A stretch of 64,000 nt of DNA. Source: Polytrichum commune (lineage: Eukaryota; Streptophyta; Polytrichopsida; Polytrichales; Polytrichaceae). The stretch is from positions 46,116,429 to 46,180,428 of the forward strand of contig OX485804.1 of NCBI GenBank assembly GCA_950295325.1, in the 5' to 3' direction. Of the stretch, positions 12,468 through 26,859 are shown piece by piece. The notes beneath the pieces were generated by a model. That model did no database searches and was not told the origin of the DNA. It saw only the letters and a list, made by a program, of their open reading frames with translations. Positions within the stretch are counted from its first letter, which is position 1. Each line of letters begins with the position of its first letter. Made by a program: the position numbers and the translations under genes.

Positions 12468-14680
12468 CCATCATGCCCACTGAACTCATGAATTTTGTTG
12501 GCATGCATTCACAAAGACATCCAATTGAAGCATGAAGAATAAGGCATTGCAAGCAAAAAGACTTAGAATTACGGATGCAATCAATCAACCTATTCCATCT
12601 CTTGTTGGTATAACATCTGGTAGCTATGAGATAGCTACATTCTTTCTAATGTAATACTCCCCTTTCTTCACATAAATTTGTAGCAAGTCTTTCTTCGCAT
12701 GTCGTTTCCTTGCATGTTTTCCAAGAGTAATGCTCTTAGGACTTATAGTCACAGGATACCCCACATGGATGTGCATATTATGCATTGAACCTTGTTAACA
12801 ACATTGTTGCATTCCTCTCAAATCATTTGAGCCCATGGATGTGCAAGAGCCCACGTACCTTGACATTTTATTGTAATATCATCACAATTTTAATTAATTA
12901 ATTAATTAATTTTTTGTTTCTTACTTGGAACCTTATCCCCCAAGTTAATAATCTCTACCACATCACATATCTAGGAGTCATAAGGGGATCGGATTGGAGT
13001 TGCCCTCCAAGTTGGATCAATTTGACAACAAGATTAGCTCGTGGATGGGTGCAATAACCGTCAACAATTACTTCGATGCTAGAGGAAGAAAACTCTAACT
13101 ACATGACCATCCTAGCGTGTTCCTCGTGGATGTAAAATCCAAAGAATTGAGATATCCCGAATTACAAATAACCACAAAATAAACCTGAAGAAATGTTTCC
13201 TTCTTTGCCTTGAATATGGCGATATGGCGATCAAATTGGATGGGGATGGGATCAAGACATAAGACCATGACATTCAAGACTCACCAACACCCACAAAACC
13301 ATATATGAGCATCCACAATAGCCAAATTGGAGCGCACACAAAAGCACAAAAAATTGACGCAATAGTGCGAAGAATGCAAAATAATGGCCTTATAAACCCA
13401 AATCACCCAATGCTCATAGAGTTGTTTTCAATGCATAAACCCATAAGGCAACAATACAAAGGCACCCAAAATGCATACACAAAAAAATACAACAAGGCAA
13501 TGCAATTTTCTTCAATAATACATGGATTAAGGTTAGAGATTCTCCCAATATCCATTGTGAACTGAATTTTGGTGTAGGTCAACCAACATAATTTGATCAT
13601 GACCAATCCTATTGCTTAATGTTTGAAGGAGCCAAGATTCACCAGGAGAATGCCATGCATCTACCAAGAATCTATCCCACTCTTTGCACTCATGTTTTGT
13701 TACATGATTCATAGTGGGAGTACACACTATATATCAATGAAAACCCCACTTCTAGTTCCCACCACCTCCTTGAATGTTGAGGAAACCTCCATTCAAGCAA
13801 AATCACTAACATAATTTTTGCACATTTAGCAAACTAAGCCTACATGTGAGTGAAATGGTGACCATAAAATCTAAAATGGAGGGCATAATGGATGCTACAG
13901 ATGTAGTAGTTGGCAAAATGAATAGACTTTGGCGATGTCACATCATGGTGCCCACCCATATGTTGGTTCTTGCATGGCTCGAGATGGTATTATTAAGAAG
14001 AAGGTGGGTTGATCACTTATGGTGCTAAGTGGCACCCCCTACCGTATGTAAGTCAACGAATAGGTTGGCAATTGTGTGGTGTAAAGGCAGTTATTTCCTA
14101 GTAGGATATCTTGTGACTCCTATTCCCATTTCGCAATGGGGCTACATTTCACCTCCAAAGAAAAGGTTGACGAGGACCTCCTTTGCAACCCTATACAAAT
14201 TTGCATGTGCCATAGTCAATGGTTGTCTCTACATCTTTGACATGCTTTGAGCATGGAGTAAATAAGTGGAAGGGCTCATGCTTTAAAATTTTTATGGCGC
14301 CAATGAGTGGGACAAGAACAATGTATCCGACCTTGTACCACCAAATGCTTAGGGTTACACATCCACCTCTTTGACTTGGGCCCCCACCACTTCTATCCAA
14401 GGTGAAAACGTAGTTGATTATATTGTAACATGTATCGTGTCTTTTTAAAGACGTTATGACCCAAAAATCAACATCAAATACTCCAAATTAGTTTTGGGGG
14501 ACCAATTTGAGATGAATTAATCACATATATAAGAGGTCGTATTATTATATCCCTTTTACCTCAGTAATAGTAGTAGGGCCCATATCAAATAGGTGGGCGC
14601 TTAGCCTTGGCCCCAACAAACAACTACAATATCAATGTTTTACCATATGATATATACAAGAACCATGGACATGCCCTAAC
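12468..14680. other. No gene seen; may hold upstream hAT remnants
   Basis: About 12,480-12,720 read on the minus strand could be further degraded transposase (NKRWNRLIDCIRNSKSF), but this is weak. A six-unit AATT run lies at about 12,890-12,913. Frames at 13,305-14,400 are short, overlap on both strands and show no domain. Confidence 0.35.
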
Positions 14681-14683
14681 TAA

Positions 14684-15177
14684 GGGCCACTTCACACACA
14701 AGACTGAGAGCCTGTGGCCAATACGCTTCAAGCACTCTCATTGGTGGAAAAGGCGGAGCTAGTCCAAGTTCGCTTCACACTACACACGAAGGACCAACAT
14801 AGTAAGTGAATGCAAGATTGATGTATATTCTGCATGGATTCCTACATGGTATCAAAACGAATCATGTTTCATGGTCACTTGGATTATTTTCAAAAACCAC
14901 CTCTAGGACCTAAACACAAGACCACGGTATCATGGCATTATGAGGTCTCACAACCGTTGATTTATTACATTTCATCATGTGTGAGGACCCCACATGAATA
15001 GAAATTCATCAAAATAGCTTTTGGTTGAGGGCTGGTCAAATATGACTTCACAATACACTTGAGGGACCGTGACCACACTACATGATTTTGGAAGTTTCTT
15101 GGGACGGCCTTTGGACACTTCTTTTGGGCTCTCACAATTTCATGGTCATGGCTCTTAGCTCATGTTAGAAGTGGCCC
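14684..15177 (+). mobile_element. PIF/Harbinger-like MITE, family H1 copy 1
   Basis: 494 bp with TIR GGGCCACTTCACACAC at the start and an inverted GTGGCCC end, flanked by TAA on both sides (14,681-14,683; 15,178-15,180). A 3-bp TNA duplication with GC-rich GGGCC termini is typical of PIF/Harbinger (Tourist) elements. It carries no transposase. Confidence 0.85.
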
Positions 15178-15196
15178 TAATTATATTTTTATCTCA

Positions 15197-15695
15197 AGCC
15201 CACTTCACACACAAGCCAAGAGCCGTGACAACAAAGTTGTGAGAGCCCAAAAGAAGTGTCCAAAGGCCGTCCCAAGACACCTTCAAAATCATGTAGTGTG
15301 GTCACGGGCCCTCAAGTGTAGTGTGAAGTCATATGTGACCATGCCCTCAAACAAATGCTATTTCAATGAATTTTTACACGTACGGGTCCTCACACCATGA
15401 TAAAATAGAATAAATCCACAGTTATGAACGTTCGGAGTACCATGGTCTCTTGGTTTTGTGTTAGGCCTACCTCCAAGAGGTGGTTTATGAAAATAACCCA
15501 AGTGACCATGAAACATGATACATTCGATGCCATTTAGGAATCCATGTAGACTTTACATCCATCTTGCATTCACTTACTCCGTTGGTCCCTCAAGCGTAGT
15601 GTGAAGCGAATTTGAACCAGCTCCGCCTTTTCCACCAATGAGAGTGCTTGAAGTGTAATGGTCACGGGCTCTCAGTCTCGTGTGTGAAGTGGCCC
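15197..15695 (-). mobile_element. PIF/Harbinger-like MITE, family H1 copy 2, inverted
   Basis: Near full-length copy in reverse orientation, only 19 bp after copy 1. Flanks are TCA on both sides (15,194-15,196; 15,696-15,698). Its outer left end is slightly mutated (AGCCCACTTCACACAC). Together with copy 1 it makes a ~1-kb head-to-head inverted repeat. Confidence 0.85.
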
Positions 15696-16043
15696 TCAGC
15701 CTGATCGGATCAAGCTTAAGCTTGGGGCAGACACAACAATTCTCATCAATGTGTTGCAAATAGGTTGAATCAAATTCAGCAATTATGTACATTTTGGTGA
15801 CCATGCTTGTGGTATGTTGACCCAATTTAGTTATGAGCACACTAAATTTATTTATGGCCAGGCACATCTAAATGTAAAGTGGGATGTTATGAACTGACTT
15901 AGGTGACCAGCTTCATCTGTTGAAGACATTATGGAACTTCTCCAAAGTCAATCATATATAGTGCCATTTCACACTACAGCCAAGGGTTTGATTTATTATT
16001 TTTGAGTACTAGTATTTAGAACTTTGAGTGTGGAACTTCACTT

Positions 16044-16078
16044 ATATATATATATATCTGTGTGTGTGTGTGTGTGAG
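16044..16078. repeat. (TA)n(TG)n microsatellite
   Basis: A TATATATATATAT run followed by about eight TG units, between two MITE copies. Confidence 0.9.
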
Positions 16079-16133
16079 TGAAAAGGCAGGCAGCCGGAGC
16101 CAATGCATCAACGGAGTAAAATACATGCACTAA

Positions 16134-16623
16134 GGGCCACTTCACACACGAGACTGAGAGCCCGTGACCAAGTACACTTCAAGCACTCGCATTGGTGGAA
16201 AAGGCGGAGCCGGTCCAAGTTCGCTTCACACTACTCTTGAGGGACTAACGGAGTATGTGAATGCAAGATGGATGTAAAGTCTACATGGATTCCTACATGG
16301 CATCAAATGGATCGTGTTTCACGGTCACTTGGACTATTTTCAAAAGCCACCTCTTGGAGGTAGACCTAACACAAAACCGGGAGACCATGGCACTCCTAAC
16401 GCTCATAACCGTTGGTTTATTCTATTTTATCATGTGTGAGGACCCGCATGAATAGAAATAACATTTGGTTGAGGGCCTGGTCACATATGACTTCACACTA
16501 CACTTGAGGGTCCGTGACCACACTACGTGATTTTGGAGGTGTGTTGGGACGGCCTTTGGACGCTTTCTTTTGGGCTCTCACAATCTCATGGTCACGGCCC
16601 TTGGCTCGTGTGTGAAGTGGCCC
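16134..16623 (+). mobile_element. PIF/Harbinger-like MITE, family H1 copy 3
   Basis: 490 bp, same orientation as copy 1. Starts GGGCCACTTCACACACGAGA and ends with the inverse TCGTGTGTGAAGTGGCCC. Flanked by TAA (16,131-16,133; 16,624-16,626). Ends and flanks are the cleanest of the family. Confidence 0.9.
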
Positions 16624-16626
16624 TAA

Positions 16627-17163
16627 GGGCACCCCCGAGTCTAAGCAAGTTAACAACTACTACAATATAGACTTCGTACCAAGATTTAACTTGGCATAAT
16701 AATCTTAAAAGTATGTCCTGAATCTACGTCAAATTCTTGGGCAAAAAATGATTTAAAGAGGTTAGCGGTGGGGTTGGGAGGTTGTCTTGGGTCGATTTCC
16801 AAGTCCCATGAGAGGTTAGGCACACGCATGCTAATATGGGTCATAAGCCAATAAGAAATAAGCATCGTTGTTTTGACATTGGGATTTTGGAGTATTTATT
16901 GCATAAATTTATGGTGGAAGGCCATGGCATACTCAATATAAATGTACTTGACGGTGGGCTTGAGTCCATAAAACACATGCTCTGATATTGAATATAAGTG
17001 GGTTGGCCACTGGTGGACCATGGTTTTTGTATGCACCACCTCTTTGAAATCCCATATAAAGTCAACAAGTTTGGTGGCAGAACTAGCGGGGATGCTTTAA
17101 GAAGATTGTGTGTGTGTTTTGAATGCACAACCAACTTATGTGATAAGTTTGATATGTTTTGGG
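16627..17163. other. No confident gene; open frame ends at a MITE
   Basis: A plus-strand frame from 16,998 (no ATG at its start, stop codon directly upstream) reads protein-like (HHLFEIPYKVNKFGGRTSG, CVCFECTTNLCDKFDMFW) up to the MITE at 17,164. An overlapping minus-strand frame is also open. I recognise neither. Confidence 0.25.
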
Positions 17164-17745: not shown

Positions 17746-19684
17746 GAAGGATCAAACCTATGGTTTAAGTCTAATGTGTTGACTATGAGATTGTGAAGGC
17801 GTCTGAAACTCGCTTGAAGGCCATACCATGACCAAATGCTAAATCTTCACCACTCTATTCGTGTAGGCTATTTCAAGCAATAGAGTATAACAAAGCAATG
17901 GTTTTGAAAATTGAAGTATCATGATCTCCTAACATTGTGTTTGAACAACCTCTTTCAAGCATGCTTGACACAAAATCCAATACATCAATATGTTTGTGCG
18001 TGAATCCAAAGACAGGGTGTCTTCAAATGTCATGTGAACGTAAATCTTTGATGTATTCAATAAACATCTAAAAGAATACACATTATTAGTTTAAGGGTAT
18101 TTCATATTTTCCTTTAAAAACTGTCTGAGCCGTAAGCTCAACAACCTAACATTATTCAACTAAGTGACAAAGTTGTAATGGGACCGGGAATATGTCATGT
18201 AAGGTTCTAAATGCTTATTAGGAAGTATATTCAACTTTTAAAATGAATGAGATTCGGGTGAAGCATTGTCATTGACTATTATTAGAATGAAAACGATTGA
18301 TAGCATCGGAATAGTGTTATGAGCACAATGTTAAGTAAGAGCAAATTTTGGGAAGTTACTTGCGTGGATGGAGGCCTGCAAACTACTTCACTTTCGCACT
18401 CACACGACTGTTGATCCGCCCCATTGCATCGCTTTCAAAGATCCGGTAGAATTGGGCAACAACTTGATCTTATATTCGTGTCACATCAAGGACACCTTAC
18501 CAAGTCTTGAATCGGAGTCCTTTGCACTTATATAGGTATGTATAAACGTGTATATATTTGGAGTGGTATTTGGCAAGGCTCGTCGTACATAGTTAGATCG
18601 TACACTTAAAAGATGCGTGTGTGCTCAAAATTACAAACATTGTTAGCTAACACAATTTGGAGGGTGTAAGGTAGATGTGCCTTAGATGAATACTTTTTCC
18701 TCGATGCACTCACTTCTCGTAGGATATGAAACACACAACTAGTGCATGATAGTTAGGAAATCCAAACTGTGTTCGTAGTCAATCGCCTCCTTTAAACATA
18801 TGTCTCCTTATGTGATTGTTTGTAGAGAAAGAGAGTGTTCACTATGAGCATGTATCAGTTTTTAACATGTCAACTCCGTATCTGAAAATTGAGATGACGA
18901 TTGTTGATTGAGTGAGATAAGTTCTAATGTACCAATCAAATTTGGTGTGCGGAGTTGAAGAGTGCCTATGAGAGGGCTAGAACTTCATGACAAGTTTCTT
19001 TGTGAACCTAACATGGAGGACATCGTAATTACATTTGGAGAAAATACAAATAATATGAAGAAAACAACATTGTATACAGTAATCTACGAGTGTCACATTC
19101 AAAACAAATGTGAGTGTGAAGATATGGAGACTTTGGGAAATTTTCGATAGGTTGGTAGTCCCATGCTTTAGCACCTCGTTGTGTTAGGGTTTGGTGTACA
19201 AAATGCGATCATGCTCGGAGAGGTCAAGATGAGTTGCTATCACAAGCACACTTGCTCCAAAGTAGTTGGTGGGTCTTTACCGTGACATCATCGTCAAGTT
19301 AGAAAGTGTCACGTAATGGCAAGGCCGTACTAAGTACACTTGTTTCGTTGCAAGCCCTAACACCATTAGTACACTTATTATTTTCATTCAAACCCTAATA
19401 TTTGACGATGTCCACCATCAATGAGGTGCAAAGTGCTTTGCTCAAGATCTGGCAATCAACAAACCAGAGGGTTGTAAGTAGGACCCTATACACATCCTTT
19501 GGAATTTTAGTCCTACTTACATCTCATAACCTTATAATTGTCAATCTTACAATCTTAGGATCCTATAAATGTTAATCTTACAATTTCAAGGACCCTATAA
19601 ACAACCTTTGGAATTTTGGGGAGGCTAAGGGTGATTTAAAGTAGGGACCGGGTTCAAGAAACTTGGATTACACAACCCACCTTA
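17746..19684. other. No gene seen
   Basis: Anonymous DNA. About 18,555-18,650 carries an R1 block (GAGTGGTATTTGGCAAGGCT). About 18,715-18,760 (TAGGATATGAAACACACAAC) is an uninterrupted relative of the site hosting the small retroposon at 23,079. Confidence 0.5.
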
Positions 19685-23056: not shown

Positions 23057-23078
23057 TCTTCTTGTAGGATATGAAACA

Positions 23079-23165
23079 TAGATAGATAGAAACTCCGGTC
23101 CCTTTTAAAGGGGGGCCGGCGTGAATAAAGTGTCCGTTCGTAATGCCAATGACCCGATGCCCACT
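23079..23165 (-). mobile_element. Tiny SINE-like retroposon, copy 1 (87 bp)
   Basis: Read on the minus strand: a short body containing GGCATTACGAACGGACACTT and CACGCCGG, then a hairpin-forming CCGG-CCCTTT block, then a TCTATCTATC tail. It is flanked by a 10-bp duplication ATATGAAACA (23,069-23,078; 23,166-23,175). An uninterrupted relative of the target, TAGGATATGAAACACACAAC, is present near 18,720. A long target duplication plus a simple-repeat 3' tail indicates LINE-type retroposition. No A/B box is obvious. Confidence 0.75.
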
Positions 23166-23175
23166 ATATGAAACA

Positions 23176-26767: not shown

Positions 26768-26778
26768 TACACACTATT

Positions 26779-26848
26779 TTGGCATTACGAACGGACACTT
26801 TATTCACGCCGGCCCCTTGCTAAAAAGGGACCGGAGTTTCTATCTATC
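26779..26848 (+). mobile_element. Tiny SINE-like retroposon, copy 2 (70 bp)
   Basis: Contains GGCATTACGAACGGACACTT, CACGCCGGCCCC, TAAAAAGGGACCGGAGT and a TATCTATC tail. Perfect 11-bp duplication TACACACTATT on both sides (26,768-26,778; 26,849-26,859). It lacks the first ~17 bp of the copy at 23,079, as a 5'-truncated retroposon would. Confidence 0.8.
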
Positions 26849-26859
26849 TACACACTATT

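Follow-up and report, generated by a model that had tools for sequence, protein, structure and literature searches.

Few plant SINEs have an identified partner LINE. Three SINE/LINE pairs of flowering plants were reported in a 2013 review, together with several SINEX/RandI pairs of Chlamydomonas (PMC3747384). TS SINE/RTE-1_Stu and ZmSINE2 and ZmSINE3/LINE1-1_ZM are plant pairs described as having a common 3' end and a stringent recognition, like the pair presented here, whereas their partners are RTE and L1 elements and their tails are made of other repeats (PMC3747384). Chlamydomonas SINEX-1, -2, -4 and -5/6_CR have 3' ends in common with RandI/Dualen LINEs and terminate in short repeats, (ATT)n or (CTTT)n, as does the present SINE in its own way, but they come from another host, the repeat unit is TATC in our case, and the two are likened by description, not by sequence (PMC3747384). 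Dualen/RandI elements combine an APE and a restriction-like endonuclease in one element, RNase H being also reported; APE and a PD-(D/E)XK-like region stand there with reverse transcriptase and RNase H in one protein (PMC3636483, PMC4640811), as they seem to do in the LINE reported here. The latter also carries a PCIF1-like domain and a 2A-like motif, which may set it apart, and its host appears to be a land plant. In the table of a 2015 survey, Dualen/RandI is listed for green algae only (PMC4438587), and a paper on P. patens transposons treats LINEs, the word SINE being absent from its main text (PMC7466625). At the level of titles, abstract openings and passages of the open-access literature, Dualen/RandI-SINE pairs were found in Chlamydomonas only and none in a land plant; a land-plant pair, perhaps in a moss, is likely the news of the present analysis.

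The DNA analyzed here is a stretch of 64,000 nucleotides (the window) located on contig C2 of an assembly comprising 64 contigs and 408 Mb, in which C1-C7, of 42 to 78 Mb, represent nearly all the sequence; this assembly is the genome searched below. The window carries two short insertions that we interpret, with a probability of about 0.87, as 5'-truncated copies of a SINE of about 366 bp, which would associate a pol III-type head with the 3' end of a Dualen/RandI-type LINE and would be driven by the LINE in trans. Copy 1 has a 70-bp body on the + strand (26779-26848), 100% identical to nt 297-366 of the SINE reference, whose last letters are the TATC tail TATCTATC (26841-26848). It is flanked by the 11-bp target-site duplication TACACACTATT at 26768-26778 and 26849-26859, a sequence found nowhere else in the whole window on either strand. 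The first-pass annotation had described this insertion, its perfect repeats and its TATC end, and was right to the base. The 3' hairpin of copy 1 (26806-26837, +) has the SINE form of the loop, and the hairpin is also present in the LINE. Copy 2, which had likewise been placed correctly in inverse orientation, has an 87-bp body on the - strand (23079-23165) that corresponds to the 3' end of the SINE and LINE (SINE nt 281-366, 94.2% identity), with a hairpin at 23092-23122 (-) whose loop is unique in the genome. Its own 10-bp duplication ATATGAAACA lies at 23069-23078 on the 3' side and at 23166-23175 on the 5' side. On the + strand of the window, ATATGAAACA occurs only at these two ends and, as a single copy, at 18724-18733, within a paralogous empty site (18713-18771, +) that had already been noticed as an uninterrupted target near 18,720. 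When the flanks of copy 2 are joined with one duplication, they align to 18713-18771 over 60 columns with 80% identity, one gap and no insert. A 34-nt core is present at two places in the window and never appeared in 100 shuffles. Searches of the whole window with Rfam and ARAGORN gave 0 and 0 matches, and Pfam on four window frames gave nothing except a sub-threshold match to Bestrophin. Separately, positions 14680-16627 contain nested repeats, both direct and inverted (I1, I2, I4 and I5, among others, with 88-90% complementarity), possibly foldback or decayed DNA transposons.

As the first-pass annotation had proposed, the genome was searched with the 70-bp body: the 40 matches scored, from 1553 candidates, were all 100% identical. 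Thirty of these 40 were taken with their flanks (sample 1), and 20 of the 30 extend upstream to a common start (SINE nt 1-6), defining an element of 366 nt, while the other 10, including copy 1 (L010), start further in. A second sample of 20 copies was taken by position from the first 25 exact 3' 30-mers listed on C1, minus five already among the 70-bp-body matches, and is biased to less perfect copies because these five were removed; 15 of the 20 start at nt 1-6, with 94.3-100% identity to the reference. Copy 2 brings the total to 51 scored copies, of which 35 are full length or nearly so and 16 truncated (15 plus copy 2); the truncated copies begin at 16 different points from nt 22 to nt 332. 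The exact 3' 30-mer of the SINE occurs 380 times genome-wide and the exact head 27-mer 611 times, both reversed controls giving 0. Sixteen copies with the exact head 27-mer and without the exact 3' 30-mer show 83.8-99.2% identity to the reference; one of them, L130, has a different 3' end. The 366-nt element is dispersed over the contigs, and no stop-to-stop frame of 90 aa was found in L001. This SINE family is common and young in the genome. Copies L117, L122 and L124 represent a subfamily with the same head and a TTTC/TTC-rich tail in place of TATC. In addition, a CCTCGGTGAGGT-type 5' sequence is common to the head-bearing copies L130 and L118 and to L068 (about nt 700-790), in a stretch that has a tRNA-like sequence and lies downstream of a FADD-type LINE frame; it perhaps represents a second, related SINE family.

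Flanking duplications and tails were tabulated in the 51 copies. Exact flank repeats of at least 10 bp were found in 41 copies (31 of the 35 full-length and 10 of the 16 truncated ones) versus 0.09% of permuted flank pairs, in line with the earlier suggestion of LINE-driven retroposition with individual target duplications. Their length varies from 10 to 15 bp in these 41 copies, and the (TATC)n tail is also of variable length. The ten others have repeats of 9 bp (L100), 8 bp (L103), 7 bp (L017), 6 bp (L004, L021, L091), 5 bp (L016, L107) or 3 bp (L093, L094), flank matches of 5-6 bp being common in the permuted control (39% and 13%). The head of the SINE contains an A-box-like TGGCTTGGTGG at nt 15 and a B-box-like GGTTCTATTCC at nt 59, 44 nt apart, with one mismatch each when scored against consensus strings (2 mismatches in all); an equally good pair was present in 5 of 2000 sequences obtained by mononucleotide shuffling of the first 120 nt. 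No tRNA was detected in the head by ARAGORN (5 loci), nor a tRNA model by Rfam up to E 10 (one copy). The absence of A and B boxes, reported earlier, holds for the two window copies because both are truncated, starting at nt 297 and about 281, but not for the full 366-nt SINE.

LINEs were surveyed through reverse transcriptase matches (150 scored of 2620) and APE-endonuclease matches (150 scored of 402). In three LINE members with a TTTTC tail, the 3' end lies about 6.06 kb past the endonuclease match, and 3' ends were sought 5.6-6.6 kb past 20 endonuclease matches picked for long open frames. Among these 20 stretches, a hairpin followed by TTTTC repeats was present in 11 and a TATC-type end in four (L078, L081, L088 and a worn one in L080); the 3' end was not found in the remaining five (L071, L074, L083, L085, L089). 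A comparison with 10 sequences showed that the SINE reference, from nt 221/224 to nt 364/366, matches the TATC-tailed ends of L088 (92%), L081 (90%), L078 (80%) and L080 (78%) over 143-146 columns, and the L081 match is also seen in the longer L090. Thus, the comparison with LINE 3' ends that had been suggested gave four matching LINEs, and the last 40% of the SINE, from about nt 224 to its end, is LINE sequence. Five TTTTC-type sequences compared gave no match to the SINE at E 0.01; the TTTTC group has only a shorter common layout, AACGG..TTYAYGCYGG, hairpin and repeat. Two further kinds of LINE were considered as partners and rejected, namely the poly(A) element L064 and the FADD-type elements L061/L068 and L063/L069: none resembled the SINE at E up to 1, in a search that detects only the closer LINEs. 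L064 (C1:68133000-68136300) is of a different type, characterized by a YADD motif and by 26 consecutive A past its frame.

Since SINE and LINE have the last ~143 nt in common, short copies could belong to either, and one or both window copies could be 5'-truncated copies of the LINE itself, a reading that we consider unlikely, though far from negligible. The loop form of copy 1 is the SINE form found 380 times and absent from the four TATC-LINE ends examined, and copy 1 is therefore most likely SINE-derived. Copy 2 leaves more room for a LINE origin: its loop departs from that of the reference SINE, a single place in the genome has its exact hairpin, a version without two C's has 0 occurrences in the genome, and LINE L081 has a similarly short loop. 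However, SINE copies with a short loop also occur (L120, L123, L127), and copy 2 could be derived from either.

A different LINE clade, RTE or L1, might also move the SINE, the similarity to the Dualen-type LINE being then secondary. The genome does contain other LINEs, such as L064 with its 26-nt A run past the frame, and the reverse transcriptase and endonuclease surveys cover 150 scored matches each. Against this, within one LINE protein family the four TATC-tailed and the 14 TTTTC-tailed ends have a common AACRG..TTYAYGCYGG-hairpin layout, so that the hairpin and repeat belong to the Dualen-type LINE lineage. In addition, a blastn search with the SINE against L031-L069 (including L061, L063, L064, L068 and L069) and the window, at E up to 1, matched only the two window copies, a search that detects only closer LINEs because the TTTTC-tailed L065-L067 were also unmatched. 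Movement by an RTE or L1 element appears quite improbable to us.

The first-pass annotation had favored an independent, promoterless mini-retroposon. A stand-alone retroposon of 70-87 bp is now very improbable, the 70 bp being the 3'-terminal 70 nt of the 366-nt SINE, which has A/B-box-like motifs. Very short copies do recur, five of the 51 starting within nt 279-299, but this clustering of truncation points is not significant (5 in 21 nt, p 0.13; 3 without the window copies, p 0.94), 35 of the 51 copies are complete or almost complete, and the short copies have no promoter boxes; as a separate family, such an element is ruled out by the longer copies. The two insertions are parts of something larger, as had been envisaged, insofar as both are truncated members of a single larger family that inserted independently of each other. 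Small size and flanking duplications might point to a DNA transposon or MITE, which is scarcely credible for an element that, as read, lacks terminal inverted repeats and that has duplications ranging from 10 to 15 bp in 41 copies, a variable 3' repeat tail and 5' truncation.

To return to the SINE/LINE pair, the hairpin of copy 1 has a folding energy of -16.6 kcal/mol (z -2.35; equaled by 5 of 200 shuffles), and that of copy 2 reaches -12.8 kcal/mol (z -0.63; 49 of 200), so that the latter is not above chance alone. Covariation was scored on 11 of the 14 TTTTC-tailed ends, with L072, L084 and L087 omitted as identical here to L070, L076 and L077. Their 9-pair stem has standard pairs in 99 of 99 cells, with three pairs changed on both sides; none of 500 shuffles reaches the covariation score, and as many two-sided changes are attained by 12 of 500. 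The TTTTC-tailed sister LINE group thus keeps its hairpin through compensatory changes. For four SINE and four TATC-LINE ends, 94.9% of cells pair and two pairs show two-sided changes, a weak covariation that 38 of 500 shuffles equal. Taken jointly with the dual-endonuclease, Dualen-type reading of the LINE, we lean with moderate confidence toward a lineage that kept one 3' hairpin while its tail unit changed between TTTTC and TATC. The conserved hairpin before the tail had been put forward as the part recognized by the reverse transcriptase: hairpin and tail are indeed common to LINEs of the same genome, the sister group preserves the hairpin by compensatory changes, and recognition is likely.

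One LINE copy, L132, has an unbroken frame of 2,919 aa (stop to stop) and a TATC tail, with Pfam domains in the order Exo_endo_phos, RVT_1, PCIF1_WW and RNase H. The APE endonuclease matches PF03372 in L132 and PF14529 in L090, both just above cut-off (Exo_endo_phos in L132: 25.5 bits for a cut-off of 24.5). The reverse transcriptase of L132 (RVT_1, E 3.9e-27) is of the non-LTR type, and in the PDB the LINE reverse transcriptase region best matches R2 proteins (E 7.6e-33), no L1-named protein being among the 13 PDB sequences obtained at E up to 1. The RNase H of L132 matches PF00075 (E 1.5e-14) and is followed in the LINE by a CCHC finger and a PD..EFTY..K..KY stretch. In the aligned C-termini, CCHC is invariant in 5 of 5 sequences and PD, E, K and KY in 9 of 9. 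Pfam gave no match at this PD-(D/E)XK-like stretch, and the PDB matches of a C-terminal profile were confined to R2; they were weak (E 0.51) and fell on the finger and the RHNK stretch, outside the catalytic residues. R2 elements (PDB 9nl2, 9dou, 8gh6) have the closest reverse transcriptase in the PDB and this weak match at the CCHC-RHNK stretch; they are not known to have an APE or an RNase H. Both are present in our LINE, which is dispersed and shows no sign of rDNA specificity. Because APE and a putative restriction-like endonuclease are found in one element, plus RNase H, we infer that the partner is a Dualen/RandI-type LINE, a call based on its domains rather than on a tree. In the stretches examined, no target duplications were found around the LINE itself. 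The PCIF1_WW match lies between reverse transcriptase and RNase H (L132 aa 2171-2299, E 2.9e-12; L090:4905-7790 aa 207-304, E 2e-9), and weak PDB matches to PCIF1 were also obtained, hinting at a possible cap-methyltransferase-like domain in a retrotransposon. Finally, DIESNPGP and DIETNPGP stretches, which we take to be 2A-like, are located in the long N-terminal part of the frame, upstream of the endonuclease (L090, L132).

Target-primed reverse transcription driven by the LINE, with recognition of the 3' hairpin, is the likely mechanism. Pol III would transcribe the full-length SINE, and the LINE protein, acting in trans, would recognize the common 3' hairpin of the SINE RNA. UAUC repeats would prime reverse transcription at the nicked target, reverse transcription would often stop early, leading to 5' truncation, and a staggered second nick would give duplications mostly of 10-15 bp. 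The mover would be this LINE rather than an unseen relative, and the pair may still be active at present. On balance, we favor the view that a land plant, probably a moss, harbors a young SINE mobilized by a Dualen/RandI-type LINE with dual endonuclease (APE and restriction-like), a PCIF1-like domain and a 2A-like motif.

The present pair is plain at the sequence level, and a LINE with an unbroken frame is available. Since two LINE groups with different tail units have one hairpin layout, it can now be tested which of the two, hairpin or repeat, is read by the reverse transcriptase. If the clade call is true, the distribution of Dualen-type LINEs and their SINEs extends beyond green algae. The genome is that of a green photosynthetic organism, with 58 matches to the chlorophyll a/b-binding family. 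One LHCII frame has its best PDB matches, behind a fused multi-domain chain (9vfj), in 8htu and 7xqp (482 and 480 bits), with 8c29 following at 447 bits; since 8htu and 7xqp come from the moss Physcomitrium, this one protein suggests a moss, a land-plant host being the firmer reading. As a side observation on the same genome, fourteen equal-scoring LHC matches lie within 95 kb at C5:1751760-1846160, forming a cluster of near-identical LHCII genes.
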